IMG/VR virus record: IMGVR_UViG_3300005732_000047 | Coordinates: 1-41,914 of that record | Length of the DNA stretch: 41,914 nt | Direction: 5' to 3' (one strand) | From: a virus | Part shown: positions 2,725-31,607 of the stretch, one piece after another | Numbering within the stretch: position 1 is the stretch's first letter | Layout of the letters: each line of letters opens with the position of its first letter | Made by a program: the position numbers and the translations under genes | Notes under the pieces: model-generated | What the model was told of the DNA's origin: nothing | Databases searched by the model: none | The model's input: only the letters and a program-made list of their open reading frames with translations

Positions 2725-3254
2725 ACATCATTCATGGCTTCTTTAGAAAAACCAGCACGACGAGCAGCAGCATTATACGCAAGTGCGGCTTCTTCTTCCG
2801 TTGCGTATGAGCCAAGCCTAGAAATAACAGAATCTACGTTTATCTGCGCCACCCATGAGCCGCCGCTAGACCGACGAGTGACCCCTCTGTGCTTTGACGC
2901 ACCGCCTCTTGGCTTTTGATACGATCTCATGTTTTGACAATGACTCATCATCCTCAAGTTTTCTACTCGATTATCGGACTTATCGCCATTTATGTGGTCT
3001 ACAGTAAGGTCTTCGCTATAGTCGGGAAGGAACGCTTGAGCAACCAAACGGTGAACGCGCTTACTTCCCGTCTTAACTGTCTTTATTCTCATGTATCCCT
3101 TGCCGTTGTCTGTCGGATTAAGCCATTGGCCACGAACTTTATAATTACCATTAGAAATATATCCTTCACGCCAAATCCTTCCGTCATCAAACACGGTCAA
3201 CTCAGCACTATGCACTGTTAGTGCAACTCCGATTACTACATCATTATCAGTCAT
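2721..3254 (-). CDS. HNH homing endonuclease with AP2 DNA-binding domain
   Basis: This encodes 177 residues. The HNH core spans about residues 66-102: VHRLVAQAF, then VDHINGDKSDN with D86-H87, then Asn residues in RVENLR. An AP2-type domain follows at about 122-172 (KHRGV, SWVAQI, LGSYATEEEAALAYNAAA). This architecture is typical of free-standing phage homing nucleases. It is antisense to all flanking genes and sits between the hydrolase and the tail fibre, consistent with insertion. A TTGACA box 35 bases before the ATG suggests its own leaderless promoter. A second, homologous copy lies at 25227-25724. Confidence 0.88.
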   Translation of the reverse strand: MTDNDVVIGVALTVHSAELTVFDDGRIWREGYISNGNYKVRGQWLNPTDNGKGYMRIKTVKTGSKRVHRLVAQAFLPDYSEDLTVDHINGDKSDNRVENLRMMSHCQNMRSYQKPRGGASKHRGVTRRSSGGSWVAQINVDSVISRLGSYATEEEAALAYNAAARRAGFSKEAMNDV

Positions 3255-3308
3255 ACAAATAAAATGAACAACTTTTTGAGGTCTGTCAAGTCAAACTCTT
3301 ATTAAAAT
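3255..3308. promoter_or_regulatory. Overlapping divergent promoters (HNH leftward, tail fibre rightward)
   Basis: On the minus strand TTGACA (3289-3284) lies 35 bases before the HNH ATG, with CATTTT as the -10 after a 17-base spacer. On the plus strand TTGAGG (3276-3281), a 17-base spacer and TTATTA (3299-3304) precede the tail-fibre ATG at 3309. The two promoters are interleaved within 54 bases and would exclude each other. Neither start codon has a Shine-Dalgarno site. Confidence 0.6.
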
Positions 3309-4658
3309 ATGAACACATTCACATTAACAGGAACACTTAAGGACATCAACAACAACGCTATCTACGCTGGTAGGTATGTGAAGTTTCGAGTGACGGGTGC
3401 TGGAACGGATACGGATACTAGCACCGTCTATCCTAGACAGACGTTTAGCTTTGTGGTTCAGTCTGACGGGACGTTGGCTCCAGAGAACTCAGGCGACACA
3501 ATGGAGCTATGGGTGAATGGTGACAGTGGGGTTCGGTCTTACTACCGAATCTACCTGCCATGGCGAGAGGTCGTGGATGTGGTTCTGCCTAGTGCGGTTG
3601 ACGGAACTACGGTTGACCTTTCTACGATCATTGAGAGTTACCAGGTGGACGGTTCCACGCAGCAGAACACGACACTTGGGGATGCGAAGGCTTACACGGA
3701 TGTTCTAGCAGACGATCCGACTAACAACACGAGCTTTGACGCAGGGAATTGGCAAGATGCAATTCTGCCAACGCCTACCAACGAGTCCATCCTCAGAGGG
3801 GACGGAACCGACTGGGTGGGAGCTACTGAGTTCAGGGTTAATACTGGAACAAGTAATAGCGGCGTTGAGGTCGGTAGCGGTGCAACGGCAAATGGAGATG
3901 GATCGGTCGCCATTGGAAAAGACTCGGTTGCCTCTGGCGACAATTCCTTTGCATTTGGGGCGCAGGTTGGTGGCGCTGCGGCTGGTGCAACAGCATCGGG
4001 GGACTACTCTTTTGCCTTTGGAACGGATGCCGTCGCTGGAGGTAGTTTGTCGTTTGCGCTTGGAAGTCTAGCCGAAACAGATCCCACTGCTTCGCTTTCG
4101 GTGGCGCTAGGATACAGAGCAAAGGCCAACCACACTGGAAGCTTTGTCTTTGCTGATTTCACTGTCGCTGATGTGGAATCTACGGCAACCGATCAATTCA
4201 CGTGTAGGTTTAGCGGAGGATACGAGTTTAAGGGCGGAGACGCCAATTTTGAGTCAGGCTTATCCTTTTCTGGGGGTCAGGTGGTGGATACAATTGAAAC
4301 TACGCTGACAGATGACGACACACACATTCCTACTTCTGGTGCGGTGGTGGATTACGTCTCTGGGTTCAAAAAGGCAACGACTAGCGTAACATCCACGACC
4401 TACACAGTTCTATCAACGGATAGCGTGGTTCTAGTGGATGACGACACTGCGGCAGCAGAGGTCACTGTAACGCTATTGGCGGCTGCTACGGCGGGAGACG
4501 GATTCTTACTAAACATCAAGAAGACTGGCAGCACCGCAAATGTCGTCATTGACGGAAACGGAGCAGAGACAATCGACGGAGCAACCACAGCAACACTCAC
4601 CTCGCAATACGAATCAATCACGCTCGTCTGCGACGGGTCAAACTGGCACATTATTTAA
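3309..4658 (+). CDS. Tail fibre or adhesin with YadA-like head repeats
   Basis: This encodes 449 residues. The N-terminal 110 residues form a beta-rich domain like phage fibre attachment regions. The centre (about residues 185-285) carries repeats of the trimeric autotransporter head type, for example GDGSVAIGKDS and GDYSFAFGTDA. The C-terminus is a Thr-rich beta region ending in LVCDGSNWHII, a common closing motif of phage fibres. It probably forms a trimeric receptor-binding fibre. The next gene follows after 9 bases with a GGAG ribosome site. Confidence 0.75.
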   Translation: MNTFTLTGTLKDINNNAIYAGRYVKFRVTGAGTDTDTSTVYPRQTFSFVVQSDGTLAPENSGDTMELWVNGDSGVRSYYRIYLPWREVVDVVLPSAVDGTTVDLSTIIESYQVDGSTQQNTTLGDAKAYTDVLADDPTNNTSFDAGNWQDAILPTPTNESILRGDGTDWVGATEFRVNTGTSNSGVEVGSGATANGDGSVAIGKDSVASGDNSFAFGAQVGGAAAGATASGDYSFAFGTDAVAGGSLSFALGSLAETDPTASLSVALGYRAKANHTGSFVFADFTVADVESTATDQFTCRFSGGYEFKGGDANFESGLSFSGGQVVDTIETTLTDDDTHIPTSGAVVDYVSGFKKATTSVTSTTYTVLSTDSVVLVDDDTAAAEVTVTLLAAATAGDGFLLNIKKTGSTANVVIDGNGAETIDGATTATLTSQYESITLVCDGSNWHII

Positions 4659-4667
4659 GGAGAATCT

Positions 4668-5825
4668 ATGACTTACCAACCAAAATTCAATTCTTACACA
4701 TCTACCGACAACAGTAGCACATCAACTCTAACCAACGGCTCTACATTTACTGGAACGTGGGAGGACGTTAAGGAATACGAGAGTGTTATAGTTGCCGTTA
4801 CCGCCGACCAAGACGGTGTTTTTTACATCGACTTTAGCCCAGACGGAACGAACGCAGACAGCACTCTTACAAGATACTACAACACTTCCGACATCGAGGC
4901 TCCGCACAGGTTTACCATTACACGCAGATATTTCCGCGTAAGGTTTACGAATGACAGCGGTAGCGGCCAGTCAGCGTTCCGTCTACAAACTACCGTAAAG
5001 GCCGCATCTGCTAATTTGAATGCTCCCATTGATGGAACCCTGTCGAGGGACTACGATGCAACGGTTGTTCGTCCGACTAACTTTGATGATGAAGTTGCAA
5101 TGGGATTGCGCCAAGGCCACTCGACATGGAATAAGTTTGGGTTCAATGCAGACGTTGATAGCGGGTCCGAGGAAATCGTTGCAGCCTTTGGTGGAACTTT
5201 TTCCATAATGACGAGCGCAGATACTCTAGACGTTGTTAGTTCTAGCGCGAACGACACCTCAGCTGGAACGGGCGTAAGAACAATTGCGATTACAGGTGTA
5301 GATGCAAATAACTTAGAACAAACGGAAGTGGTTACTTTAAACGGAACAACCCCTGTCACTACATCGAACTCATGGCTGGGGGTTAATCGTGTCACTGTAT
5401 TGACAGCAGGTAGCGGCGGCGCACCCGCTGGCAACATCACGATTGACGACAACGGCAATTCGGTCGGAACTCAGGCATACTTACCAGCAGGGCAGAACGT
5501 AACCCAACAATGTATATTCCACACTCCGATAAACCAGACGTTTTTGTGTGACTTCATTTGGGCAAACATAAAAAAAGGTGCTGGTGATCCAATCGTCACC
5601 ATTTACCTTAGAAGTTACTCACGAGTAACTGGACTAACCTACGAGGTGGCTAGGTTTACTTTGGATGCTGATGTTGAACTCACAGGGCAAATATCCAACA
5701 CGAAGACACCGCTTGTCTTTACTGGTCGAGAAGTAATACAGATGGTTGCTGAGACCGACACTAACAACACCGAGGTCTCAGGTCGGTTCTCTGGAAAACT
5801 AATTAAATCTCCATCAGCGGAGTAA
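4668..5825 (+). CDS. Putative virion structural protein (tail or fibre component)
   Basis: This encodes 385 residues with an AAGGAGA ribosome site close to the ATG. It has two beta-rich parts. Residues 1-110 resemble a jelly-roll domain. Residues 150-260 contain the pattern VTLNGTTPVTTSNSWLGV followed by a Gly/Ser-rich strand region, which occurs in structural proteins of other phages. The C-terminal 100 residues are again beta-rich. There is no signal peptide. Its place between the tail fibre and other tail genes supports a virion role; the exact part is unknown. Confidence 0.65.
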   Translation: MTYQPKFNSYTSTDNSSTSTLTNGSTFTGTWEDVKEYESVIVAVTADQDGVFYIDFSPDGTNADSTLTRYYNTSDIEAPHRFTITRRYFRVRFTNDSGSGQSAFRLQTTVKAASANLNAPIDGTLSRDYDATVVRPTNFDDEVAMGLRQGHSTWNKFGFNADVDSGSEEIVAAFGGTFSIMTSADTLDVVSSSANDTSAGTGVRTIAITGVDANNLEQTEVVTLNGTTPVTTSNSWLGVNRVTVLTAGSGGAPAGNITIDDNGNSVGTQAYLPAGQNVTQQCIFHTPINQTFLCDFIWANIKKGAGDPIVTIYLRSYSRVTGLTYEVARFTLDADVELTGQISNTKTPLVFTGREVIQMVAETDTNNTEVSGRFSGKLIKSPSAE

Positions 5826-5828
5826 TCT

Positions 5829-7172
5829 ATGGCTAATTCACACGGCAGTCTAAGATGGAAACTATACGGAGGCGGCGCGGAGGTTGCGAAGCTTCCTAAT
5901 AGTCGCTATGCGGTCACTATTCGCTGCCAGTCTCACAATCTGACAAAGGACTGGTATTACGCGAACTTAGCAAATTTATTCAAAGACTTTGGTAGCGCCT
6001 ACGACCTTCCGCTAGAGGATGGCGATGAAGCGTCTAGCTCTTGGACTCCAGACGACGGTGAGGAATACCCAAATCTCAAGCTAATTAACATTGAGTATAA
6101 GTATATTCCAAACATGGATACACCTGTTCTGGAGTTCTCTTATGAGACGCTGACTAGCACATGGACAAACGAGGACAACGACCTAAACCCATTGTCGATC
6201 AATGGCCTTCGTGTTTTAGAGCAAAACCAAGTGGCGGTCAGCGGGACAGCATTGCCCTACGACGAGGATGACGTTGGTGTTGTTACGACTTCAGACGGAG
6301 GCAAGACGCTCTATCTGGCAGGTCTTGAGGATCGTTCGAGCGAGCGCAAGGGGCAGGTCACGCTAAGTTGGGCAGAGGCAGGAACTCTAAGTGAAACGGT
6401 TACACCAGAATCCACTGGTCTTAATCGAGTCAGCACAACATATTTAGCAGTAGAGCCAGCGACTTCTCACCCCGTTATTTCAAGAACCACCCAGAATGTA
6501 GAAGGACTCAAGACCATTACGGTTGTGACGCTTCAGCGTTCGGATGGCAGTGCCATTACGGACGGAAACCCAACCAACAGCTTCGGTCGGATGTATAACT
6601 TTGCATACCCAGGAGTTGTTGGCGTGTCCTCTGTGACAACCACAGCTATCTCTGGAGACACGGCAATCAACCGATTTTTCTACCAGCAATCCCCTACTGA
6701 GCGCCCGATTCCTGCAACGAGTTATGTGTTCTTTCAGACCGCATCTCAGCCAGTTGCGGGAGACTACACTTACGGTGGTGCTGTCGGCCTATGGTCTCCG
6801 TCCAACTGGGCGCGGGGAACTTATTACGGGTGGAGATACCAAGGATCTAACTTTGGAACACCGATAGGCGAGAATACAGGTTTTCGCGGATTCAGGACGG
6901 TTGAGGACGATAGCGAGATTTCGGGCGTTTTTACATCCATCAGTGGAACCGCTACTGACGACGACGGACTAAGTGGAACCTTGCTGCTGGACGGCACAAC
7001 CTACTCTATAAGTGTATCTGGTGGCCCAGAGAAGCCAGACGGGAAAACATACACCCTTGGGGTTATTGACATTGCTCCAGCATTCATTGATGTGGATGGC
7101 ACTCAATACTACAAGAAAATTATCACCGTAGCAACTATTCCGACCCAAAGCGGGTCTACTATTACAGGCTAA
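5829..7172 (+). CDS. Putative tail structural protein
   Basis: This encodes 447 residues and begins 3 bases after the previous stop. The start region has conserved-looking aromatic residues (KDWYYANLANLF). The middle is beta-rich, and a C-terminal domain of about 80 residues has alternating strands and many Thr, Ser and Gly. No enzymatic motif, signal peptide or coiled coil is seen. It overlaps the next ATG by one base (TAATG), so it is coupled to the small charged protein downstream. A tail or baseplate-like component is likely from context only. Confidence 0.6.
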   Translation: MANSHGSLRWKLYGGGAEVAKLPNSRYAVTIRCQSHNLTKDWYYANLANLFKDFGSAYDLPLEDGDEASSSWTPDDGEEYPNLKLINIEYKYIPNMDTPVLEFSYETLTSTWTNEDNDLNPLSINGLRVLEQNQVAVSGTALPYDEDDVGVVTTSDGGKTLYLAGLEDRSSERKGQVTLSWAEAGTLSETVTPESTGLNRVSTTYLAVEPATSHPVISRTTQNVEGLKTITVVTLQRSDGSAITDGNPTNSFGRMYNFAYPGVVGVSSVTTTAISGDTAINRFFYQQSPTERPIPATSYVFFQTASQPVAGDYTYGGAVGLWSPSNWARGTYYGWRYQGSNFGTPIGENTGFRGFRTVEDDSEISGVFTSISGTATDDDGLSGTLLLDGTTYSISVSGGPEKPDGKTYTLGVIDIAPAFIDVDGTQYYKKIITVATIPTQSGSTITG

Positions 7173-7729: not shown

Positions 7730-8295
7730 TGACACAACAACTCAGAGCAGGGCCATTCGGAAGTTCAAGCAATAGCTTCCTAGACGAACCAGTATCGGCT
7801 AGCCGCCTTGTCGTGCCCATTAACGGGGCTATGAGTGGTAACGCGAACTGGGTATGGAAGCACTACTTAGGGAAGAATATAACAGAGGGAAATGACGAAG
7901 TAACCACACGAAGCTACGAAGATGGTTTACCCAATGAGAGCGCGTTTGCGGAGGAGTCTGGAGGGAACTCATCGGCAAGCCTCGACCTACGGTGGAGGTA
8001 TCAGGCAGTCAGCGACTTCACAATCTCGGTAAACTACGACCTTGAGGCATCTGCAACGCTGGGGTCAGGGGATGGGGGTGTGTTCATCACCGTGACGGTT
8101 GATGGCGTGGAGGAGTTTAGCGCCAGTGACGAACAACAGGGGGTCACATCCGTCTCTCTGTCTGGAATCGAAGACATCAGTATTCCCAACACTGACGACT
8201 CGCCACCAAAGCTCATTGAGGTAGATGTGAGTGGTTATTTTGCTGAAATCGGAACAACTAACACAGAGGTGGACTTGAGCATAGCAATAACTTGA
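7729..8295 (+). CDS. Putative structural protein, beta-rich
   Basis: This encodes 188 residues with beta strands throughout, including LDLRWRYQAV, FTISVNYDLEA and VFITVTVDGVEEF. There are no cysteines, signal peptide or membrane segments. The composition (Thr, Ser, Glu, Val, Gly) and length fit a virion surface or tail accessory protein. The stop overlaps the -35 box of the promoter for the next transcription unit. The family is not recognised. Confidence 0.6.
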   Translation: MTQQLRAGPFGSSSNSFLDEPVSASRLVVPINGAMSGNANWVWKHYLGKNITEGNDEVTTRSYEDGLPNESAFAEESGGNSSASLDLRWRYQAVSDFTISVNYDLEASATLGSGDGGVFITVTVDGVEEFSASDEQQGVTSVSLSGIEDISIPNTDDSPPKLIEVDVSGYFAEIGTTNTEVDLSIAIT

Positions 8296-8320
8296 CAACA
8301 TTACTTTTATACTATACAAC
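8292..8320 (+). promoter_or_regulatory. Promoter for the internal virion protein genes
   Basis: TTGACA at 8292-8297 is followed, after spacers of 15-17 bases, by overlapping -10-like sequences around TATACA and TACAAC. Unlike the leaderless promoters elsewhere it leaves a leader of about 15 bases that contains AAGGA before the ATG at 8339. The only gap of any size in this part of the arm lies here. Confidence 0.5.
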
Positions 8321-8338
8321 CTAAGATAAGGACATATT

Positions 8339-9850
8339 ATGGCAAATTCATTTTTACAGAATCTACTGAAGGGGCAACCTCAAAAGCCAGCTTGGGAGCA
8401 GCCTGTTCCAACGTCACCGCCACCCGTAACGCTAGGGCCAGCAGCGCCTACCTTCGCAGAAAAAGCTGGATTCTACGGGAATCGCATGGATCAAGCATTT
8501 GGTAAACCCTTCTCCGAGGGTTCTTACAGCATGTCTGACCCGATGCGACCAACTGAAAGCATCATCAAGCCTGGTATCGGACAAATGACAGATGATGCTG
8601 GTCAAGCATTTAACCAGTGGGCGGCACAGTCTATGCGCGATTCGAGTCAAACATTAGAGCAAAAGCAATCTGCCGCTGGATGGAGTCCAAAGGCAATTGC
8701 CCCCAATTTAGCAAGTTCTCCTCAAGTCGCTCCTATTTCCGCGCCAGCGGAGCAACAGACTCAAACCATAGATATGGGGTCTAATGTAGCAGCAAGCACT
8801 GTCATGTCGCCAGAGCCAAGCAGAGCGCCTTACGCAACACAACCCCCTAGCGGCCTAACGACAGTAGGAGGCGCACCGTTGTCCGAGTTCCTGAGTGGCG
8901 GAGCAATGCCAGAACAGGGCTTTGCAAGGGCTGAGAATGCGATGTATGGCGACAACTCCATTAGTAGGGGTCTAGGGGGTGATGCAGCAACGAAAGCCTT
9001 TCAGGACGCTTCTGCGGCTCGTGAGGCACGTATAGGCTTCTCTCAGCGTCCAGGCGTTGACGTTCCAAGTCTAGCAATGCAGGAGCAGCGTGTGGCGGCG
9101 GGGCTTGACCCGAACGGCGGCATGAACTCTGGACTGAGCCAAGCGCAGCAACGAGCTTACATGGGGTCGGGTATTGACCCTGATACAATGCAGCCTATTG
9201 CCCCAGAGGGAGAAGTAATGTCTGTCCAAGAAAAAGCAAATCTCCTAAAGACTCTAACCCAGACGGAAACCGAAAAGCTAAAGCAGGCTGGACTGGTTCA
9301 GGAAATGGAGGAGCGAGGAATCAAGGCGCAAGGTGCTCGCACCGAGGAACAATTGCAGGCTCAAGGAGAACTCCGATCATACGGCGAGCAGCTTAATAAG
9401 CTAACTGGGGTTCGAGATGAGATCGCTAAGGTTACCAAGAAAAATTGGGCAACCGAAGGCGGCTTGGGCTGGCTAAACGCTACCCTTCCGCTTGGGTCTG
9501 ATGCTCGAACCGTAAGCCGACTTGTTAAGGAAATCGAGGGTAGCACGTTTATTCGAGGCATTATTGACGCTAAGAATCGTGGTGCTACATTTGGACCACT
9601 ATCTGACCAAGAGGGTGCGAATATCGTAGCCGCATACGGAAAGATCCTTACTCCAGATATGAAGAACGAGCAGCGGGTGACAGCTATAAATGACCTACTT
9701 AGTGCAATGAACGAAGGATTTAACAACTCCGCAGAGCGTTACAAGTCCAGATACCAAGGAGGAGAGCAAGTAGCATCTGGCGCACCACAGCAACCATCTG
9801 GCGGAACAATCCCAAATGTCGAAGGAGTAACAATCAGAATTAAAAGCTAA
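8339..9850 (+). CDS. Putative internal virion or ejection-associated protein
   Basis: This encodes 503 residues with an AAGGA ribosome site. Residues 1-290 are low-complexity, rich in Pro, Gln, Ala, Ser and Gly and probably disordered. Residues 295-350 form a charged coiled coil. The last 130 residues form a helical domain followed by a short GTIPNVEGVTIRI tail. It overlaps the start of the 951-residue protein by one base. Paired genes of this kind next to each other late in short-tailed phage genomes usually encode ejected internal proteins; that role is inferred. Confidence 0.6.
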   Translation: MANSFLQNLLKGQPQKPAWEQPVPTSPPPVTLGPAAPTFAEKAGFYGNRMDQAFGKPFSEGSYSMSDPMRPTESIIKPGIGQMTDDAGQAFNQWAAQSMRDSSQTLEQKQSAAGWSPKAIAPNLASSPQVAPISAPAEQQTQTIDMGSNVAASTVMSPEPSRAPYATQPPSGLTTVGGAPLSEFLSGGAMPEQGFARAENAMYGDNSISRGLGGDAATKAFQDASAAREARIGFSQRPGVDVPSLAMQEQRVAAGLDPNGGMNSGLSQAQQRAYMGSGIDPDTMQPIAPEGEVMSVQEKANLLKTLTQTETEKLKQAGLVQEMEERGIKAQGARTEEQLQAQGELRSYGEQLNKLTGVRDEIAKVTKKNWATEGGLGWLNATLPLGSDARTVSRLVKEIEGSTFIRGIIDAKNRGATFGPLSDQEGANIVAAYGKILTPDMKNEQRVTAINDLLSAMNEGFNNSAERYKSRYQGGEQVASGAPQQPSGGTIPNVEGVTIRIKS

Positions 9851-13896: not shown

Positions 13897-14178
13897 TTAA
13901 TTAAGTCCTCCGTCCTTCCACTTCTCGGTAACATACTCAGTCACCCTGTCCTCAATTAGTTCAATCAGGTCGGCTGTAAGCTTGATGTCCCCGCCATCTT
14001 CGTCAACGGCGCTCAGAATGTCAATGTCATCAATGACAAGCTCAACCTCCTTGCGAATGCCAAACTCGTGAGAGAAGGAGGCGTCTGTCTCGTAGGCCTC
14101 AACCTCCGCCTCCACGACGAACCATCCGTATTCTGTCCTGTCTATCTCTAGTTCTACTTCTGTTCTGTATTGTTTCAT
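13897..14178 (-). CDS. Hypothetical acidic protein (93 aa)
   Basis: This encodes 93 residues, strongly acidic, with alternating Val/Glu strands near the start (VELEIDRTEYGWFVVEAEVEAYE) continuing as a beta-rich fold and a helical C-terminus. It looks like a small cytoplasmic inhibitor or accessory protein of the kind common in early phage regions; the function is unknown. A TTGACA box lies exactly 35 bases before its ATG, so it probably has its own leaderless mRNA. Confidence 0.65.
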   Translation of the reverse strand: MKQYRTEVELEIDRTEYGWFVVEAEVEAYETDASFSHEFGIRKEVELVIDDIDILSAVDEDGGDIKLTADLIELIEDRVTEYVTEKWKDGGLN

Positions 14179-14213
14179 GGTCTTAGTTATTTACAGTTTG
14201 CAGGTGGTGTCAA
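14179..14213 (-). promoter_or_regulatory. Leaderless promoter for the 14178 gene
   Basis: On the minus strand TTGACA begins at 14213, 35 bases before the ATG. An A/T-rich region containing TAAATAAC fills the -10 position. No Shine-Dalgarno sequence lies near the start. Confidence 0.6.
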
Positions 14214-17004: not shown

Positions 17005-17207
17005 TATTTTACCTCCTCCACTTCGCCGTCTTCAATCATTTGAGAGAACTCTACGTCTAGGTAAGCAATGGGTTCCTCGCCCCAGCCATCCAGACGAACG
17101 AGCATTTGCCCGCTGGTGCAATGTTCGCAGTCGGCAACGGGGATGATTTGAAAGACATTCCAAACCTTCCCGTTGATCTTGTATTCGTTGTTTTCTTTTA
17201 TGTTCAT
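17004..17207 (-). CDS. Hypothetical protein (67 aa), first gene of its operon
   Basis: This encodes 67 residues: beta-rich, with CEHC (residues 27-30) as a possible metal-binding pair, a hydrophobic GWGEEPIAYLDVEF strand, and an acidic end. It overlaps the next ATG. A TTGACA box 36 bases before its ATG suggests a leaderless mRNA that serves the genes from here down to about 14218. The function is unknown. Confidence 0.65.
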   Translation of the reverse strand: MNIKENNEYKINGKVWNVFQIIPVADCEHCTSGQMLVRLDGWGEEPIAYLDVEFSQMIEDGEVEEVK

Positions 17208-17243
17208 GTCTTATCTTTATGTTGATGGTTAAACCCGTGTCAA
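17208..17243 (-). promoter_or_regulatory. Leaderless promoter for the 17207 operon
   Basis: On the minus strand TTGACA begins at 17243, 36 bases before the ATG. ATAAAG or TAAAGA lies at the -10 position after 17 or 18 bases. There is no Shine-Dalgarno sequence. It sits in the 43-base gap downstream of the helicase gene. Confidence 0.65.
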
Positions 17244-22141: not shown

Positions 22142-22143
22142 AA

Positions 22144-24027: not shown

Positions 24028-24270
24028 CTACCAGTCAAAGTCCTCGTTCAGAACTTCCTCTAGTTCGATTTCTTTTATGGTCTTGATCATTGGTTTCTTA
24101 AATTTACCGCATTTTGCGGCCAGTTCTCGTTCCTTGCCACTGTTATCACAGGCCGTGTAAATCATGTCAATCACAAATTTGCTGCATCCGTCTTTTTTTG
24201 CGTCTCTGGCAAGGATCGGCTTCGCCCTTGTCGGGTCAATCTTTCGTATCCAGTAATCATAGAGTCTCAC
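24028..24270 (-). CDS. Hypothetical basic protein (80 aa), GTG start
   Basis: This encodes 80 residues. GTG at 24270 gives MRLYDYWIRKI; a TTGACA box lies 36 bases upstream, the same spacing as before the leaderless ATG genes, which supports this start. The middle is basic (RDAKKDGCSKFVI, KFKKPMIK) with three Cys, and the end is acidic. No family is recognised. Confidence 0.6.
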   Translation of the reverse strand: MRLYDYWIRKIDPTRAKPILARDAKKDGCSKFVIDMIYTACDNSGKERELAAKCGKFKKPMIKTIKEIELEEVLNEDFDW

Positions 24271-24306
24271 TTGTTGCTATGCTTTTCAGATGTCAGGCCA
24301 TGTCAA
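24271..24306 (-). promoter_or_regulatory. Leaderless promoter for the 24270 gene
   Basis: On the minus strand TTGACA begins at 24306, inside the last codons of the upstream gene, 36 bases before the GTG. The -10 region (AGCATAGC) is a weak match. The fixed distance is the main evidence. Confidence 0.45.
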
Positions 24307-24498: not shown

Positions 24499-25016
24499 GG
24501 TTGTTCCTTTCGGTCAACCGTTACAATCGTGTCATTGTGCCAGCCCCCGTGAGCAACCAACAGAATTTCCTCAATCTCCATTCCGTATTTCTTACCAATC
24601 CCTCCTGAGTTCCATCCAAACGTGAGGCACACGCCATCAGGCTTTAGAATACGCCCAATCTCCTGCTTCATGTTACCCCAGTAGGATGCCTGTGTGGTCT
24701 GCATGTTGACAGTCTTCCCTAGCTTCTTGTAGCACTCAGAAACCTGTCTTGGCGAATATGGAGGGTCGAATAAGACAACATTCATTGACTCGCTTCCAAG
24801 CTCCTTTAAGAAGTCAAGGGCGTCTAGGTGATGGTCGGCCTCTAAGTCGCAATCAAGGTCATTTGTGATTGTCCCCTCGCTCCACCGCTTTCCGTTGCAG
24901 AACGGGTCAGCTATTGTGAGTCCGTCCTCGTTTGTATAACTCTCGATTAAAGCCTTGATTGGCTTAATGCTGAAAGTGTCTTTGTTGGGCATTGCCCATG
25001 ATCGTGTTATTTTCAT
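24495..25016 (-). CDS. Adenine-specific DNA methyltransferase-like protein
   Basis: This encodes 173 residues. A class I methyltransferase core with ADPFC (36-40) in the SAM-binding region, NDLDCD, and the catalytic DPPY (84-87) followed by SPRQVSECYKKLG. KPDGVCLTFGWNSGG is the post-catalytic strand. DPPY is the amino-methyltransferase motif, adenine-N6 being most likely. It may protect phage DNA from restriction. No separate recognition domain is evident. A TTGACC box 35 bases upstream and repeated operator-like sites suggest tight control. Confidence 0.78.
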   Translation of the reverse strand: MKITRSWAMPNKDTFSIKPIKALIESYTNEDGLTIADPFCNGKRWSEGTITNDLDCDLEADHHLDALDFLKELGSESMNVVLFDPPYSPRQVSECYKKLGKTVNMQTTQASYWGNMKQEIGRILKPDGVCLTFGWNSGGIGKKYGMEIEEILLVAHGGWHNDTIVTVDRKEQP

Positions 25017-25051
25017 GTCATTGTTTCTACGAAACTGTTTCTACTGGTCAA
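25017..25051 (-). promoter_or_regulatory. Leaderless promoter with internal repeats (methyltransferase gene)
   Basis: On the minus strand TTGACC begins at 25051, 35 bases before the ATG, with TAGAAA at -10. Two copies of GTAGAAACA (plus-strand 25022-25030 and 25036-25044), 14 bases apart, cover the spacer and -10. GAAAC-A-GTTTC between them is a perfect inverted repeat. This looks like an operator for a repressor. Confidence 0.6.
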
Positions 25052-25055
25052 CTAA

Positions 25056-25226: not shown

Positions 25227-25724
25227 CTAAAAATTCATGGCCTCCGAAGGGAATCCATATTTCTTCGCGGCAGCATCATAGGCCCTTGCGGCATCCGACT
25301 CCTTGGAAAAGTTGCCTAGTTTTTTACTTTTGCCACTTATGGAGATTTCTGCCCTCCAGTATCTCGACTTTAGAGTCTTATCTCTCCAGACCCCTCTATA
25401 TTGTGATGTCTTACTCTTTCTAGGCTTTTGAAACGCCCGCGTGTTGTCTCTTGGTGTGGCAGAACGCAGGTTGGTCAGCTTGTTGTTGGACTTGTCTCCG
25501 TCAATGTGATCTACCTGCCTCCCGTTTTTCAGGTCGAGGTCGAACGCTTGAGCTACCACCCTGTGAATGAGGGTGTTTACTCCGCCGATATTGAGCCTTC
25601 GGTATCCAGACCGAGCCATATGTCCAAATGTTCGGACTGCCCCGACTCGCCTGTCAAGGCTAACGGAGCCGTCACTAAACGCGATGACCTCAACGTCATT
25701 TATTATTGTTTTTGCATATATCAT
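25227..25724 (-). CDS. HNH homing endonuclease with AP2 DNA-binding domain (second copy)
   Basis: This encodes 165 residues from MIYAKTIIND. The HNH core is at about 53-90: IHRVVAQAF, VDHIDGDKSNN with D72-H73, then TNLR. The AP2-like domain is at about 108-160 (QYRGVWRD, YWRAEISI, ARAYDAAAKKYG). It is homologous to the protein at 2721-3254 in architecture and in motifs such as AYNAAA/AYDAAA. It is next to a large gene-free, structured region. An upstream start at 25772 would add 16 residues. Confidence 0.86.
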   Translation of the reverse strand: MIYAKTIINDVEVIAFSDGSVSLDRRVGAVRTFGHMARSGYRRLNIGGVNTLIHRVVAQAFDLDLKNGRQVDHIDGDKSNNKLTNLRSATPRDNTRAFQKPRKSKTSQYRGVWRDKTLKSRYWRAEISISGKSKKLGNFSKESDAARAYDAAAKKYGFPSEAMNF

Positions 25725-25772: not shown

Positions 25773-26130
25773 AGCAGAGTTTCATAGGCGGCATGTCCCG
25801 CTATGATTCCGATGGAGTCTCTAATTCCATTGCTTTCGAGATGAGCCTAGCCGATTTCTTACGGTTGCCCTTTCTGCCTGCGATCTAGCTGTCGATTCCT
25901 GCATTCGTATATCACCGTCACTTTCGTCCCATCCAAGCTATTAAACTCTGCAAAACTTCACCTGGTATTACGGGTTAGTCGATTACTGAATCGCCGCATA
26001 TCTCTATTAACTAGGGTTTACGTGTCACCCATAAACGCGAGCCTTGTTTCATGCCCTGACTGTAAATTGATCCCCGCCTTGCCTACATCAGTAAGCAAGC
26101 GTCGCTTTGCCATTCGGCAAGGCAGGGAAA
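25773..26130 (-). other. Gene-free region with many hairpins, possible structured RNA
   Basis: There is no credible reading frame on either strand. The minus strand has several short perfect hairpins, for example CGATT-CAGT-AATCG and GTTTA/TAAAC around TGGGTGACACG. At its right end, CCCCGCCTTGCC (26072-26083) pairs with GGCAAGGCAGGG (26116-26127) in 11 of 12 positions. It lies between the putative small RNA and the HNH gene. It was compared by eye with group I intron core motifs without a match. Confidence 0.4.
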
Positions 26131-26250
26131 AGAACAAAAAGAAACCCCGAACTCAGGTAGCTGCACTTGCTGTGAACGGGGTTCCCCCGCTTGGCGGGGT
26201 AAAATGTTTACTTGCGGTGCAGCCGCTAAGATAGAGAATCTGTAAAAGAA
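26128..26250 (-). ncRNA. Putative attenuator-like small RNA
   Basis: Read leftward from a TATAAT-containing promoter, the transcript would be about 120 bases with no open frame. It contains four pairing strands in order: CCCCGC (26199-26194), GCGGGG (26190-26185), AACCCCG (26183-26177 complement region) and CGGGGTT (26049-side of the T-tract, 26149-26143). Strands 1:2 and 3:4 make a hairpin plus a terminator followed by TTTCTTTTTG, while 2:3 makes a competing hairpin. GCTGCAC near the 5' end can pair with GTGCAGC in the terminator loop (pseudoknot). The RNA is inferred from sequence only. Confidence 0.5.
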
Positions 26251-26256
26251 CAGTTC

Positions 26257-26281
26257 CATTATACGGACTTCGCCATTTTTT
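26257..26281 (-). promoter_or_regulatory. TGGCGAA-TATAAT element, leftward copy
   Basis: Minus-strand AAAAAATGGCGAA, a few bases, then CGTATAATGG matches the two rightward elements at 35608 and 37989 in the order and spacing of TGGCGAA and TATAAT. It is flanked by GTTCCA and TGGAAC arms. It would start transcription near 26250. Confidence 0.55.
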
Positions 26282-26286
26282 GGAAC

Positions 26287-26322: not shown

Positions 26323-26333
26323 GCTTAGACCAT

Positions 26334-26360: not shown

Positions 26361-26448
26361 ATGTAAGCCCTTAGAATTGGCTTGCCCTTCGCCCCTAGCC
26401 TAGACCCTCGCAGTGAGAGAAAAGGCCGTGTAGGGCGAATATGTGGCT

Positions 26449-26781: not shown

Positions 26782-26800
26782 TGGTTCCTTTGTTTTGTTA

Positions 26801-27094: not shown

Positions 27095-27251
27095 TGGCTT
27101 GATCCTCTCCGTCAATGCGTTCTACTAAGCATTCGCCCAGTTTTTGCAGGACAATAAGACGCTTGGCTTCTAGGTCTTTTAATTCCTCCCTCAGCCTGTT
27201 TTCGCGTGTGGTGAGTTCTTGCTCGTGTTCTTGTTCTGGTGATGATTTCAT
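27087..27251 (-). CDS. Small coiled-coil protein (54 aa)
   Basis: ATG at 27251, with ribosome site AAGGAAA, opens a 54-codon frame ending in TAA at 27089-27087. The peptide is a highly charged helix (EQEHEQELTTRENRLREEL) with a heptad pattern and an acidic end. Its stop overlaps the next gene's start. It is the first gene of a three-gene operon with a 16-base palindrome in its upstream region. Confidence 0.65.
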   Translation of the reverse strand: MKSSPEQEHEQELTTRENRLREELKDLEAKRLIVLQKLGECLVERIDGEDQANV

Positions 27252-27265
27252 TTGTTTCCTTTCGT

Positions 27266-27295
27266 ATTATGCCCTGCAAGGCTCATATTTGAGCC
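27266..27295 (-). promoter_or_regulatory. Promoter -10 and 16-base palindrome before the 27251 operon
   Basis: GGCTCATATTTGAGCC (27280-27295) is a palindrome with perfect 6-base arms. CATAAT, a -10-like sequence on the minus strand, lies at 27271-27266, 15 bases before the ATG. A palindrome between -35 and -10 is a typical repressor site. Confidence 0.5.
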
Positions 27296-27343
27296 ACAAG
27301 GCTGTTTGATTGATTGCGAAGGGTAAGACACCCCTCTGCCCTT

Positions 27344-27379
27344 AAAGCCCGACAACTCCCGTTGAGGCGCTGTCAGGCT
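27344..27379 (-). terminator. Hairpin terminator after the 27895 gene
   Basis: Read leftward, AGCCTGACA and TGTCGGGCT pair across a 17-base loop, followed by only TTTAAGGG, so it is weaker than its relatives. The stop codon lies 22 bases before, followed by CTAGCCCAACCCTC, like the modules at 28 kb. Confidence 0.6.
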
Positions 27380-27400
27380 GAGAGGGTTGGGCTAGTGGAA

Positions 27401-27895
27401 CTACGAGGGAAGGCTCTGAAGTTCCTCCTCGGTGAGATTCAGTTCGCTGCGTAGTTTTTGCGCGTGTTCCTTTGCCTTATTCCAATTGGCAACGTCCTTG
27501 ATTGAATCGGGGTTATAGCCAAGGTCTTCCATGTCCTCATATAGAATATAATAATCACTACGAATGGAGCACAATATTGAATACAAAAGACCATCTTTGA
27601 AGGCTTTCGAAGCCTTTTTTCTTTTTCGTATATCGCTGCGATCCCACCGATCAACCGCAGGAGTTTGCGTCATTGCGTCAACATGGCTTCCGTGATAGGC
27701 AAAAGAAAGCTTTCCGATTGTAACAATCATGTGAAGCGCCTTTAAATCCTCGTTCCACGGCGAAGGAATGACGGTTGGAGGGCCAACGCAGATATTAAGC
27801 CGTTTTATTAGCTTTCCTAGGGTTTTCTTATCATCTGAGTATTCAAAGCAAAGTTCCTTGGCTGCTTCGTAATCGTAGTTAAACGTAGTTTTCAT
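27401..27895 (-). CDS. Hypothetical protein (164 aa)
   Basis: This encodes 164 residues, soluble and mixed alpha/beta: a helical start (AAKELCFEYSDDKKTLGKLIKRL), a central Val/Ile/Thr/Tyr strand region with HVDAMTQTPAVDRW, and a charged helical C-terminus (KEHAQKLRSELNLTEEEL). No family is recognised. It stands alone between two terminators, so it is a single-gene unit. An A/T-rich -10-like region precedes the ATG. Confidence 0.65.
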   Translation of the reverse strand: MKTTFNYDYEAAKELCFEYSDDKKTLGKLIKRLNICVGPPTVIPSPWNEDLKALHMIVTIGKLSFAYHGSHVDAMTQTPAVDRWDRSDIRKRKKASKAFKDGLLYSILCSIRSDYYILYEDMEDLGYNPDSIKDVANWNKAKEHAQKLRSELNLTEEELQSLPS

Positions 27896-27998
27896 AATGT
27901 TTTTCTTTAGTTTAATTTAGTTATGCCGTCATTAGCATGACCCTTTATTTACTGGCCCGGTGGCGATTGCAAGTCTTATTTTAATTATTTTTAGTCAG

Positions 27999-28059
27999 AA
28001 AAAAGCCCGTAGCGTTAACTACAGGCCGTGGAGTGGTTTGGCGTGAGGGTTAGGCTTCA
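27999..28059 (-). terminator. Stop-plus-terminator module after the 28233 gene
   Basis: Read leftward, the TGA is followed by AGCCTAACCCTCACGCC, then a hairpin GCCTGTAG...CTACGGGC and six T. The same order of elements occurs at three further sites up to 29.3 kb. Confidence 0.8.
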
Positions 28060-28233
28060 CTCCCCGCTTTCATAATAAAAATCATAAATTTCCCCAAGTA
28101 TAGCGGGATCAATTCCGAGGTCCCCAGACTCGCAAGCCTCTAGACTCGCGGTCTCATCGGTTAACTTGCAAGTTATCCATATAATTCCATCGTCAATTGT
28201 CGCCTCAAGCTCGTTAGTGTTATAATCTTTCAT
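28057..28233 (-). CDS. Small acidic protein (58 aa)
   Basis: This encodes 58 residues from MKDYNTNELEATI. It is strongly acidic, with strands GIIWITCKL and a helix ILGEIYDFYYES. The later start is chosen because the longer frame runs through the upstream terminator module. Small acidic proteins like this often inhibit host proteins, but nothing specific is known. It is the only gene in its cassette. Confidence 0.6.
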   Translation of the reverse strand: MKDYNTNELEATIDDGIIWITCKLTDETASLEACESGDLGIDPAILGEIYDFYYESGE

Positions 28234-28279
28234 AATATAGTAAGCCACGTTGGTTAGGCTGAATTGCCCCGTGACACCC

Positions 28280-28333
28280 AAAAAGCCCGACGCGCGAACG
28301 TCAGGCCGTGGGTTTGGGTTGGCGTGAGGGTTA
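28280..28333 (-). terminator. Stop-plus-terminator module after the 28519 gene
   Basis: The TAA stop is embedded in AGCCTAACCCTCACGCC. A hairpin (GCCTGACG/CGTCGGGC) and TTTTTGGGTGTC follow leftward, so the module continues directly into the leader of the next cassette. Confidence 0.8.
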
Positions 28334-28519
28334 GGCTATAACCTCGTTGAGCCAATACCCCTCGGAAGCGGTCAAATGAGCGACCGCAAAGGCACAGGCG
28401 GCACCATAACCATTGAATGCCGTGGCAAGGTTAATATCAGTTGACCAACTGACCTCACCAAAGGCAATGCAAAGGTAGGCGTCAGAATCGGTGGAACGAA
28501 TGTGCAGTGGATTTTTCAT
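28331..28519 (-). CDS. Small hypothetical protein (62 aa)
   Basis: This encodes 62 residues: a beta start (NPLHIRSTDSDAYLCIAFGEV), then a helical Ala/Gly-rich middle with ATAFNGYGAACAFAVAHL. There is no membrane segment. The upstream leader carries AATTCAAC, also seen before the gene at 29104. No family is recognised. It is a single-gene cassette between two matching terminators. Confidence 0.6.
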   Translation of the reverse strand: MKNPLHIRSTDSDAYLCIAFGEVSWSTDINLATAFNGYGAACAFAVAHLTASEGYWLNEVIA

Positions 28520-28596
28520 GGTATGTTCTATTGAGTCTTAGAGTTGAATTGAGAAGAAAAACTGTAGCGTTGAAGGCTGAATTGCCAGCGACACCC

Positions 28597-28650
28597 AAAA
28601 AGCCCGCAGTGTTAGCTACAGGCTTTGGGTTGAGTTGGGCGTGAGGGTTA
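28597..28650 (-). terminator. Stop-plus-terminator module after the 28848 gene
   Basis: The TAA stop continues as CCCTCACGCC, followed by a hairpin AGCCTGTAG/CTGCGGGCT (with G-U pairs) and TTTTTGGGTGTC. The sequence matches the module at 28280 closely outside the stem. Confidence 0.8.
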
Positions 28651-28848
28651 ATTCGTGTAGTCATAAGGCCAATAATTGCGACCAATACCCTCAAGGCTTA
28701 TACAATCGGCATCTGGGTTTTGCGCGTATATATCGCACCAAGGAATATCTGCCTTATATTGGCCTTCCAATGAGCATTGAACTGACTGTCCGTCGTCCCA
28801 CTCTAGCAGGAAGTAAAAACTATACTCGTCTGTGTGGTTCTTTGCCAT
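28648..28848 (-). CDS. Small hypothetical protein (66 aa)
   Basis: This encodes 66 residues. The N-terminal half is a beta sheet with EYSFYFLLEWDDGQSVQC, the C-terminal half acidic and aromatic (IPWCDIYAQNPDADC). An AGGAGAAT ribosome site precedes the ATG, 1 base after the upstream stop, so it is the second gene of an operon and uses ordinary initiation. The function is unknown. Confidence 0.65.
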   Translation of the reverse strand: MAKNHTDEYSFYFLLEWDDGQSVQCSLEGQYKADIPWCDIYAQNPDADCISLEGIGRNYWPYDYTN

Positions 28849-28849
28849 A

Positions 28850-29104
28850 TTATTCTCCTAGTTGTTTGTTAAGCCATTTTTCAAGCTGCTCCATGCGGTC
28901 AAATTCATATTGTGAGCAAACAAGGTCGCGCTCGCGGAGCAAGGCCAATGACTCTGCCTTACTTGCACACATAAGCCTACAGCGCGAAAGCGCCTGATAG
29001 AGTGCCTTCCATTCTACGCTGTGGCGCTTCTGCACTCCTAGTTGATCTAACACACTCTGACAAGCTGCGCGAGTGGTTTTATTAGTGTTCTTGGTTAATC
29101 TCAT
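28850..29104 (-). CDS. Small helical protein (84 aa)
   Basis: This encodes 84 residues from MRLTKNTNKTTRAAC. It is helical and basic, with four Cys and a C-terminal amphipathic helix (FDRMEQLEKWLNKQL). The start at 29104 is chosen because TTGAGC lies exactly 35 bases upstream, as before other leaderless genes, and the longer frame lacks any signal. It could bind nucleic acid. The downstream gene is coupled. Confidence 0.6.
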   Translation of the reverse strand: MRLTKNTNKTTRAACQSVLDQLGVQKRHSVEWKALYQALSRCRLMCASKAESLALLRERDLVCSQYEFDRMEQLEKWLNKQLGE

Positions 29105-29139
29105 GGCACTAACAATGCACACTAACCATATCCGCTCAA
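29105..29139 (-). promoter_or_regulatory. Leaderless promoter for the 29104 operon
   Basis: On the minus strand TTGAGC begins at 29139, 35 bases before the ATG, with CATTGT or ATTGTT at -10. No Shine-Dalgarno site is seen. Confidence 0.55.
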
Positions 29140-29144
29140 GCTTT

Positions 29145-29173
29145 AATTCAACTAAATCAATTCAACAGTTGAA
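29145..29173. promoter_or_regulatory. AATTCAAC repeat cluster, possible operator
   Basis: AATTCAAC occurs at 29145-29152 and 29159-29166, 14 bases apart, and the second copy forms the palindrome TTCAAC-A-GTTGAA (29161-29173). The cluster lies just upstream of a -35 box. A further AATTCAAC precedes the gene at 28519. Confidence 0.5.
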
Positions 29174-29248
29174 CAACACACCACACTAAACATACGACAT
29201 CCTTGTCGTGTATTACACAGCATATATCTATCAATCATGGCTACAAAA

Positions 29249-29297
29249 AAGCCTTAGCGGTTAAACTAAGGCTTTGGAGTGAGTTAGGCTAGTGCTA
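29249..29297 (-). terminator. Stop-plus-terminator module after the 29540 gene
   Basis: After the TAG, AGCCTAACTCACTCC leads into AAGCCTTAG and CTAAGGCTT, a perfect 9-base stem ending in six T. It is a divergent member of the 28-kb module family. Confidence 0.85.
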
Positions 29298-29540
29298 TGC
29301 CTCAAACCTCTTGCCCGTGCTAATAATGACTAATGCACCATCTACCCAGTCAAGGTCGCTCCATGCTACGTGAGCGCCCGCGCTGCCTGGCGCGTAGGCA
29401 TTCCAGGAGGTTATACCCTGAAGCGTGGCACTCCACATTAAATGTGACTTGTCTGGGTCTTCAAAACCAGACCCGCCTAGCCATACCTCCACCAGCTCCT
29501 TGCGCTCGGATGGTTTCATTGATCTAAATTCACTGTCCAT
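29295..29540 (-). CDS. Hypothetical protein (81 aa), first leftward gene
   Basis: This encodes 81 residues from MDSEFRSMKP. A helical start (SERKELVEVWL) and a Trp-rich beta domain (HLMWSATLQGITSWNAYAPG, AHVAWSDLDWVDGALVII) are seen. The internal Met at 29540 is chosen because TTGACG lies exactly 35 bases upstream and the frame before it covers that promoter. As the first leftward gene after the divergent gap it is probably expressed very early. The function is unknown. Confidence 0.6.
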   Translation of the reverse strand: MDSEFRSMKPSERKELVEVWLGGSGFEDPDKSHLMWSATLQGITSWNAYAPGSAGAHVAWSDLDWVDGALVIISTGKRFEA

Positions 29541-29575
29541 ACGAGGAATAAAACGCACTTTATCCGCATCGTCAA
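29541..29575 (-). promoter_or_regulatory. Leaderless promoter for the first leftward gene
   Basis: On the minus strand TTGACG begins at 29575, with a 17-base spacer, TTTATT as -10 and the ATG 35 bases from the -35. No Shine-Dalgarno site. Confidence 0.6.
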
Positions 29576-29961
29576 GCACTTATTTTCTAGTTAATGCTTA
29601 GGCTTAACATATCAAGCAAACATGATACGTTGATATTTGACTACTCAAAGTCTACTCTTTGACTCATGTATGCTAGGGGTTTTGAACACATGACAGGATG
29701 ACACATAGGATGCATCCCACCGACCGACAAAAGAAACCACACTCACGCACGAACACAGCGGGCAGTGACACGGGGGGAGGGGGTAGCGTAGGCTGTGCAG
29801 GCTGTAGTAGTGTATATATAAAACCCTCCTACAAAAAATAGTATGACCACGGGGCTTTTGGCCACGTATTTCATATCATAATTTACGTATATATTAACAG
29901 GTCGGTTTTGGGACTGTGGCTTTTGATTCTACAAGCCTTAATCCCAAAAGGTGCTTTTGGC
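29576..29961. other. Divergent control gap between the two arms
   Basis: About 390 bases without a convincing gene separate the first leftward and first rightward genes. Contents: two TTTGACT copies (29636-29642 and 29658-29664, 22 bases apart), a G-rich run near 29773, an A/T-rich stretch with TATATATAAA (around 29812), and several CTTTTGG half sites (29855-29861 and others). It is the natural place for early regulation and perhaps for a replication origin, which is not shown by sequence. Confidence 0.5.
29944..29960. promoter_or_regulatory. Inverted repeat CCAAAAG-GTG-CTTTTGG
   Basis: This is a perfect 7-base inverted repeat with a 3-base centre, ending one base before the TTGACA of the methyltransferase promoter. 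Further CTTTTGG copies occur 80-90 bases upstream. It is a candidate operator for a regulator of the rightward arm. Confidence 0.5.
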
Positions 29962-29997
29962 TTGACAAGGGTGTAAGAGTAGTATTGTGTTTGTGTT
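29962..29997 (+). promoter_or_regulatory. Leaderless promoter for the rightward arm
   Basis: TTGACA at 29962-29967 lies 36 bases before the ATG at 29998. TATTGT at -10 has a 15-base spacer, so the match is imperfect. No Shine-Dalgarno site precedes the ATG. Confidence 0.55.
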
Positions 29998-30768
29998 ATG
30001 AAGACAGAACTAATACACGACGATTGCATTGAAGCGATGCGGAGAATGGGAGATGGGAGCGTTGATCTCACTGTTACGTCTCCGCCCTATGATAATCTCA
30101 GAACCTACGAGGGGTCACTGGATTGGAACGAGGACATCTGGAAGCAGGTCTTGGAGGGTCTGTATCGAGTGACAGCAGACGGTGGCGTGGTGGTGTGGGT
30201 GGTAGGTGACGCTACGATTAAGGGTAGTGAGACTGGGACTAGCTTCAAGCAAGCGTTGTATGCGATGGAGTGCGGGTTTCGACTGCACGACACCATGATT
30301 TGGAATAAAGGTGGCTTCTCGTCGCCACAATCGAACCGATACGGGCCATGCTCTGAATATATGTTTATCTTAACAAAGGGCAAGCCGTCGTCTGTTAGTC
30401 TCATTAAAGATAGGAGGTCGAAGAAGTCTGGACAGAAGATACACTCTGGTAAACGGAAGTCTGATGGATCAATGAGGACATCGGCAAACCACGGAGATAT
30501 TCGCCCAGAGTTCGGTGTGAGATTTAATATATGGGATCAGCCCCCCGTTCAAAGCAACAAGGAGCGAACGGGGCATGTGGCGCAGTTCCCCGAACAACTA
30601 GCACACGACCACATCATCTCATGGAGCAACGAAGGCGACACAGTATTCGATCCATTCATGGGAAGCGGAACGACTGGCAAGATGGCAAAGGAGTTAGGGC
30701 GCAATTTCATCGGAGTCGAGAAGGTGGAGAAGTATTTTGAACTATCAAAGAAAAGGATTGAAGGATGA
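29998..30768 (+). CDS. DNA methyltransferase (N4-cytosine or N6-adenine type)
   Basis: This encodes 256 residues in the beta-group motif order. The catalytic TSPPY (27-31) comes first, then central strands (GGVVVWVVGDATI) and a variable, basic region (about 135-165) that probably reads the DNA target. Last is the SAM-binding FDPFMGSGTTG (about 217-227). TSPPY favours N4-cytosine but N6-adenine is possible. It probably protects phage DNA from restriction. It is the first gene of the rightward arm and overlaps the next gene by 4 bases. Confidence 0.9.
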   Translation: MKTELIHDDCIEAMRRMGDGSVDLTVTSPPYDNLRTYEGSLDWNEDIWKQVLEGLYRVTADGGVVVWVVGDATIKGSETGTSFKQALYAMECGFRLHDTMIWNKGGFSSPQSNRYGPCSEYMFILTKGKPSSVSLIKDRRSKKSGQKIHSGKRKSDGSMRTSANHGDIRPEFGVRFNIWDQPPVQSNKERTGHVAQFPEQLAHDHIISWSNEGDTVFDPFMGSGTTGKMAKELGRNFIGVEKVEKYFELSKKRIEG

Positions 30769-31358
30769 AATCAGTATTAGAAGTAGAGTGGAAGGTTAAT
30801 CCAGACGAGAGTGGGCTACGTGCTTACTACATACCTGGGTCTGTGATGCGTGATAGTCGTCTTAGCTGTAAGGCTAAGGTTGTATGGAGCTACATGAACA
30901 GTAGGCCATCTGGGTGGGACTTTAGTAGTGCTAGGATGGCGGAGAGCTTTAAGGAGGGTCGTAAGCCCATTCAGGGGGCAATACGTGAGTTAGAGGGGTA
31001 TGGGTATCTCAAGAGGCGACGTATGGCAGATGGTCGGATTAGCTATAATCTGGTCTATGACTCTACAGCGTTGACCGAGGAGGAGGCGCAAGAGTGCCTA
31101 GCTGAGACTTTCCCAGACTACTACGTGACGGACGAGGAGTTTGTGTGCATCAATGATTGCATTCAGGAGTTGATGAGGGATGGGATGGACGAAAAGCTGG
31201 CCAGGAAGACTGGTGAGGAGTTCTGGAAGTGGTGCGATAGTGAGAAGCTAGGTCAGAGCCGACACGCTTGGACTAGGTGGAAATCGCTCTATGTGCCTAA
31301 TATGGACGTAATGGGTCGTGATTCTGAGCCACTGAGTGATGGTGAGTTCTTTCCATAG
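30765..31358 (+). CDS. Winged-helix protein, possible replication initiator
   Basis: This encodes 197 residues. Residues 25-90 contain a winged-helix pattern: LSCKAKVVWSYMNSRPSGW, then AESFKEGRKPIQGAIRELEG, then YLKRRR and a beta wing. Such domains occur in phage and plasmid replication proteins and HTH_36-type regulators. The C-terminal part is helical, acidic and Trp-rich. An AAGG ribosome site and a 4-base overlap with the methyltransferase show coupling. With DnaB as the only other replication gene seen, an origin-binding role is plausible but unproven. Confidence 0.6.
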   Translation: MKSVLEVEWKVNPDESGLRAYYIPGSVMRDSRLSCKAKVVWSYMNSRPSGWDFSSARMAESFKEGRKPIQGAIRELEGYGYLKRRRMADGRISYNLVYDSTALTEEEAQECLAETFPDYYVTDEEFVCINDCIQELMRDGMDEKLARKTGEEFWKWCDSEKLGQSRHAWTRWKSLYVPNMDVMGRDSEPLSDGEFFP

Positions 31359-31383
31359 GGTTCGCCAATTTATTGGTTAGGGC

Positions 31384-31418
31384 TTGACACGTAGTTTATA
31401 ATCGGCATAAATATCGAC
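31384..31418 (+). promoter_or_regulatory. Leaderless promoter for the small-gene and terminase operon
   Basis: TTGACA at 31384-31389, a 17-base spacer, ATAAAT as -10, and an ATG 35 bases after the start of the -35. No Shine-Dalgarno site. Just upstream lies a reverse-oriented partial copy of the TTGGCGAA element (TTCGCCAATTT). Confidence 0.65.
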
Positions 31419-31607
31419 ATGAAGACAGACATCAGCACAGAAAGAGATACCATCACAATCGAGAAGGCCAAGTCTGGTTTTGTGATTTATGAGAAAACGG
31501 GTTATGGCGAGGTTGGGCCTATGCACGGTCTATCATCGGCAATCGACGTTCAGAGCAAGGTGACAAAGTGGACTAATGCTAAGGAATGCCAGCAGAACGA
31601 AGACTAA
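31419..31607 (+). CDS. Small hypothetical protein (62 aa)
   Basis: This encodes 62 residues with beta strands at the start (TITIEKAKSGFVIYEKTGYG), then a helix with SAIDVQSKVTKWTNAKE. No family is recognised. It overlaps the next gene by one base (TAATG). It is the first gene of the unit that leads to the terminase. Confidence 0.6.
   Translation: MKTDISTERDTITIEKAKSGFVIYEKTGYGEVGPMHGLSSAIDVQSKVTKWTNAKECQQNED

Follow-up and report, generated by a model that had tools for sequence, protein, structure and literature searches.

The PRM promoter of phage lambda is a host-type promoter with its start point at the AUG, and Thermus is a member of a host group that is rich in leaderless genes. Leaderless transcription is already known in phages, both for lambda, whose cI message is the classical example (PMC3160421, PMC9031893), and for Thermus phages, with most of the middle and late messages of phiYS40 being leaderless (PMC3594737); the middle and late promoters of P23-45 belong to the extended -10 class (PMC7403470). 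Phage transcripts have been termed "often leaderless" in one paper (PMC5312081), and it is the 70S ribosome that binds a leaderless message, at an AUG on or close to its 5' end (PMC9031893). Leaderless genes are also widespread in bacteria, with the motif TANNNT some 12 bases upstream of their start codons (Zheng et al. 2011, PMC3160421).

The phage described here shares some features with each of these systems. Like phiYS40 and P23-45, it is a tailed phage with many predicted leaderless genes and with late promoters that have a good -10 box and no -35 box; unlike in the Thermus phages, an element peculiar to the phage lies upstream in its late promoters, and another predicted leaderless class combines a strong -35 box with a weak -10 box. 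With lambda cI it shares a host-type promoter with a predicted start point at the AUG, although lambda cI is a single gene, whereas several promoters per genome would be of this kind here. The TA-led genes of the bacterial and archaeal genome survey (Zheng et al. 2011), with their -10-like TANNNT signal, have a counterpart in the portal promoters of this phage, but the TTGACA class is distinguished by a strong -35 box and a degenerate -10. As in the AsiA/MotA promoters of T4, the -10 box is retained at the late promoters and a phage-specific element replaces the -35 box (PMC5312081, PMC7403470); unlike in T4, the activator is only putative, and the element, positioned ~5–8 bases upstream of TATAAT, differs between close relatives. 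What appears to be new is that a single phage genome would reach leaderless starts by two kinds of promoter, of which one is conserved across the clade.

The window, a stretch of 41,914 bases corresponding to IMG/VR record IMGVR_UViG_3300005732_000047, is derived from a tailed phage, with a structural part pointing to the right and an early part pointing to the left. The latter encodes a DnaB helicase, an ERF annealing protein, a metallophosphoesterase, a methyltransferase, and an HNH nuclease. A right-pointing operon starts with a methyltransferase, followed by an initiator-like HTH protein, and leads to a terminase-like gene (named by position and without a family match), a portal-like gene, and the major head protein. 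The long intergenic region between divergent operons (29680-29880) contains G-rich and A/T-rich blocks, and a similar layout is seen in contig L188 at ~500-700; both are possibly an origin or control region. The start of the second HNH gene is probably ATG 25724 (minus) rather than 25772, because the alignments of its homologues begin at 25724. No intron around this gene was supported, since the Rfam search returned no intron match and only a DUF3800-VIII RNA.

The nearest annotated record is that of Phage C75C1, with a portal protein ~36% identical. Uncultured relatives of the structural part, namely G001 (L072/L113), L069, L070, L074-L078, L114, and L115, are nearer than C75C1, and relatives of the early genes are found in L084-L106; the relatives of the phage derive from environmental metagenomes. 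No relatives of the helicase were found in viral contigs in a single-sequence scan. Four tandem tRNA genes (Ser, Ser, Met, Thr) are present in G001 (L079) at 2498-2827, whereas a tRNA search of the window found none. In a host search with the profile of the major head protein (MCP), matches were obtained only in two MAG contigs, at ~30% identity, one from Rickettsiales and one from Opitutae. The pattern CTTGACA-N28-30-ATG is enriched over the reversed pattern in the Rickettsiales contig (18 vs 7) and not in that of Opitutae (10 vs 8), and these counts name no host.

An earlier note on this DNA had listed ten start codons preceded by TTGA-type -35 boxes at a nearly constant distance and had read them as one genome-wide family of leaderless sigma-70 promoters. 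All ten boxes are indeed present, 33 (3309+), 35, or 36 bases upstream of the start codon (Table 1). Exact CTTGACA precedes six of these starts (3254-, 14178-, 17207-, 24270-, 29998+, and 31419+), near matches are found before 25016- and 29540-, and the matches before 29104- and 3309+ are weak. Three of the starts, 24270 (GTG), 29104, and 29540, are without homologue support. Counting both strands, the whole window contains ten copies of CTTGACA: besides the six located 35–36 bases before candidate starts, one precedes the leadered gene 8339, which has a Shine-Dalgarno site, one lies in a gene-poor region (26322), and two are within coding sequence. As the boxes are TTGACA, a Bacteroidetes-type promoter is unsupported.

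Table 1. Predicted promoters and contrast cases in the window. Distances run from the box's first base to the start codon.
Feature	Coordinates	Strand	-35 box or upstream element	-10 box	Start codon	Distance (bases)	Remarks
HNH endonuclease gene	3252..3289	-	CTTGACA, 3289-3284		ATG 3254	35	predicted leaderless promoter
Weak site	3276..3311	+	TTGAGG, 3276-3281		ATG 3309	33	divergent from the 3254 promoter
Leadered contrast case	8292..8341	+	TTGACA		ATG 8339	47	SD-like AAGGA, short leader
93-aa gene	14176..14213	-	CTTGACA, 14213-14208		ATG 14178	35
Gene after DnaB helicase	17205..17243	-	CTTGACA, 17243-17238		ATG 17207	36
GTG-start gene	24268..24306	-	CTTGACA, 24306-24301		putative GTG 24270	36
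DNA methyltransferase gene	25014..25051	-	TTGACC, 25051-25046		ATG 25016	35
Third copy of late element	26257..26279	-	late element with TATAAT, 3 mismatches	TATAAT			gene-poor region, upstream of Rfam DUF3800-VIII RNA
Weak site	29102..29139	-	TTGAGC		ATG 29104	35
Site before 29540	29538..29575	-	TTGACG, 29575-29570		ATG 29540	35	second in-frame ATG at 29519
DNA methyltransferase gene heading the initiator operon	29962..30000	+	CTTGACA, 29962-29967		ATG 29998	36
Site before 31419	31384..31421	+	CTTGACA, 31384-31389		ATG 31419	35
Portal-like gene, late promoter	35610..35642	+	AAATTGGCGAA element	TATAAT, 35626-35631	ATG 35640		predicted leader 0–2 nt
Twin late promoter	37991..38053	+	AAATTGGCGAA-type element	TATAAT, 38007-38012	ATG 38051		leader ~40 nt

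The number of boxes at this distance is far above expectation. Among 63 curated starts, TTGACA is found 33–37 bases upstream in six cases versus 0.13 expected (P 5e-9), TTGAC in nine versus 0.52, and TTGA in 12 versus 1.98, with the remaining 5-base distance bins near background. Because the curated list includes the starts chosen in the earlier note, the test was repeated on a mechanical, uncurated list of the 80 longest-ATG reading frames, in which CTTGAC is the top-ranked hexamer at 34–37 bases (6 observed, 0.19 expected). The chance frequency of 0.4% previously assigned to such a box is correct for a five-base word, but TTGAC is present at only eight of the ten starts; the excess survives. 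The candidates also lack Shine-Dalgarno sites as claimed, with 0 of 11 reaching -4.4 kcal/mol against the anti-Shine-Dalgarno sequence, compared with 18 of the 54 other starts. The contrast that had been drawn with four operon-internal genes is thus true but mild, since 36 of those 54 starts are likewise without such a site, and for this reason the absence of a Shine-Dalgarno site is only weakly informative and not diagnostic of leaderless transcripts.

Taken singly, the -10 boxes in the TTGACA class are poor and A/T-rich. When a sigma-70 -10 matrix was moved along 17 sites, the mean score was highest 6 and 7 bases ahead of the start codon (z 2.7 and 2.8), at the position that a leaderless start requires. 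The best-hexamer -10 score over all sites is borderline, with 5% of shuffles reaching the same score. The motif TANNNT ~12 bases before the start is absent from most TTGACA-class starts and present at the portal promoters. Transcription would be expected to start next to a pyrimidine, but in the window the candidates show no significant excess of pyrimidines at position -1 (9/10 vs 33/52, P 0.10), and this sign of the start point was dropped. Judging from the geometry of the boxes, the start point would fall on the start codon or within ~5 bases of it.

The check suggested in the earlier note, whether the distance is kept in relatives while the intervening bases vary, has a positive outcome in several comparisons. 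CTTGACA stands 36 bases before both 17207-, the gene that follows the helicase, and its 29% identical counterpart in G001 (28921-), with different spacers, and the distance of 35 at the HNH gene 3254- is matched by TTGACA at 36 at its homologue in L101 (1403+). In L188 the initiator gene is the first in its operon, with CTTGACA at 35, whereas in the window it is the second and the box of the operon is at 36; an ATTGTGT -10-like block is common to the L188 initiator promoter and to the window promoter at 29998. Comparison of window positions 29998-30768 with L188 828-1349 places the methyltransferase gene between promoter and initiator only in the window, with the promoter and ATGAAG kept, which amounts to a swap of the first gene under one promoter. 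The box is also found at 35 before G001 1985+, a homologue of the operon-internal window gene 16262-, at 35 before the methyltransferase gene of L114, and at 34 and 35 in a small orthologous pair of L099 and L100 (60% identical) without a detected relative in the window. In the other viral contigs retrieved, intergenic TTGACA is likewise most frequent 35, 36, and 37 bases before a start (9, 8, and 5 occurrences vs ~2 per base), and since some of these contigs belong to unrelated phages, the geometry is not private to the clade. In a fresh set of relatives (L189-L268), the 34–37 bin was raised (7 vs ~2), but so was the 50–53 bin (8), making this replication partial.

The strongest single leaderless case in the phage family is predicted for a gene not included in the earlier list. 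In the window, the ATG of the portal-like gene 35640+ is preceded at eight bases by GTATAAT, and TATAAT is present 7–8 bases before the ATG in all 11 portal genes of the close set (the window, G001, L069, L070, L074, L076, L077, L078, L114, L115, and C75C1), with different intervening bases. The MAFFT alignment of the portal genes misplaces the row of C75C1, in which TATAAT is actually 8 bases from the ATG. At that position TATAAT is found in none of 35 more distant portal starts. TTGACA is absent from the portal promoters, and the position of their -10 box is also compatible with a leader of 1–2 bases. The sites thus do not form one genome-wide family, as the portal gene would be leaderless via a different promoter, consisting of TATAAT and a phage-specific element. 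To call the leaderless expression systematic is likewise too strong, since some operon heads are leadered, namely 8339+, with its Shine-Dalgarno site, and 38051+, with a leader of ~40 bases, and others show no promoter box of this kind.

An unlikely alternative is that the TTGACA boxes belong to ordinary promoters with a very short leader of a few bases, translation then taking the A/U-rich, Shine-Dalgarno-independent route that serves many other starts in the genome. Initiation without a Shine-Dalgarno site is general here, being seen at about two thirds of the other starts, and the -10 boxes are too weak to define a base-exact start; however, the distance is sharply fixed at 35–37 in the window and its relatives, with no upward spread from 35, and the portal TATAAT independently fixes a leader of 0–2 bases. 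It is very improbable that TTGACA represents an operator or another protein-binding site at a fixed distance, with the real promoter further upstream. Although the strong TTGACA is accompanied by poor -10 boxes and in two cases (14213 and 17243) sits right where the upstream gene ends, the -10 signal is weak yet correctly placed, and in L101 and L099 a TTGACA box is followed 17 bases on by TATACT or TATATT, with an ordinary leader. Chance combined with post-hoc selection of starts and words by eye, to which the two boxes matching TTGA only and the selected start codons 24270 (GTG), 29540, and 29104 might point, is the least probable explanation of all, being contradicted by the persistence of the excess on the uncurated list, in contigs that had not been seen when the proposal was made, and at homologous genes.

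At the late promoters, a phage-specific element adjoins the -10 box. At the portal promoter it reads AAATTGGCGAA in the window, GGCAACGCAAGCC in G001, CTTCCCCC in L076, and AAAGCTCGTTGTATA in L115, and in each phage scanned the phage's own element recurs at another TATAAT (TATACT in L115) before 38051 or its equivalent, the likeness being weakest in C75C1. Among eight phages, the observed within-phage similarity of the elements is reached by only 2 of 40,320 pairings, the effective number of phages being somewhat below eight because G001 is close to L069. A third copy of the element is present in the window (Table 1), so that the element is found at several putative late promoters of one genome. 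Since it varies between phages yet is common within each of them, a phage-encoded activator is suggested, and the late pair would be driven by this putative, phage-specific late activator. The TTGGC found at the late promoters was also considered as a sigma-54 signal, but this reading was rejected, as relatives have unrelated elements there (CAACGC, CTTCCCCC, and AAGCTCGTTGTATA).

The leader of the twin promoter (38013-38050) precedes the gene in front of the major head protein, and its pattern ATCG..CGTTA recurs in most relatives; leaders of this type are found in L079, L069, L074, L076, L078, L111, and L112. Downstream of the third copy, the Rfam DUF3800-VIII RNA match is located at 26068-26131 (minus), with 41.5 bits against a gathering threshold of 40.2.

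The leaderless sigma-70 reading of the TTGACA boxes remains the best one, with a conserved distance and a weak -10 signal in the right place, although two of the ten examples that had been offered for it are weak. Taking both promoter types together, it is probable that about eight TTGACA-class starts and the portal gene are leaderless, the portal promoter probably being directed by an activator. In the proposed mechanism, the eight starts, which are mainly in the early/middle region, would have promoters of the sigma-70 type, in which a strong CTTGACA -35 box is paired with a weak -10 box rich in A and T, read by the host RNA polymerase with its main sigma factor. Transcription would begin at the first base of the start codon or 1–2 bases away, and the leading gene of each transcript would then be translated leaderless. 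The portal promoter would combine a perfect TATAAT with the element just upstream that replaces the -35 box and is probably the site of a phage-encoded late activator. Later in infection, this activator would steer the polymerase to the late pair, yielding one transcript that begins from or next to the portal AUG and another that is leadered. The sequences themselves show the positions of the boxes, their excess over expectation, the conserved distances, the missing Shine-Dalgarno sites, and the pairing of late elements in each phage, from which start points, polymerase use, timing, activator, and leaderless translation are inferred. We can speculate, with considerable reserve, that paired late promoters under one fast-changing, phage-specific activator provide a leaderless portal mRNA and a leadered capsid-operon mRNA with a conserved 5' region. 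Such an arrangement, together with the leaderless early genes, might allow the phage to adjust the timing and the ratios of its proteins through the different handling of leaderless and leadered messages by ribosomes.

Because they share an element and differ in the predicted presence of a leader, the twin late promoters would offer a natural paired test of leader function. Leaderless expression in phages has been documented mainly for lambda cI and the Thermus phages; if the present reading is true, a clade outside these cases, with two distinct promoter types directed at the start codon and a leaderless structural gene kept throughout the clade, would show that such expression can belong to the regular programme of a phage instead of being a peculiarity of a single host group.
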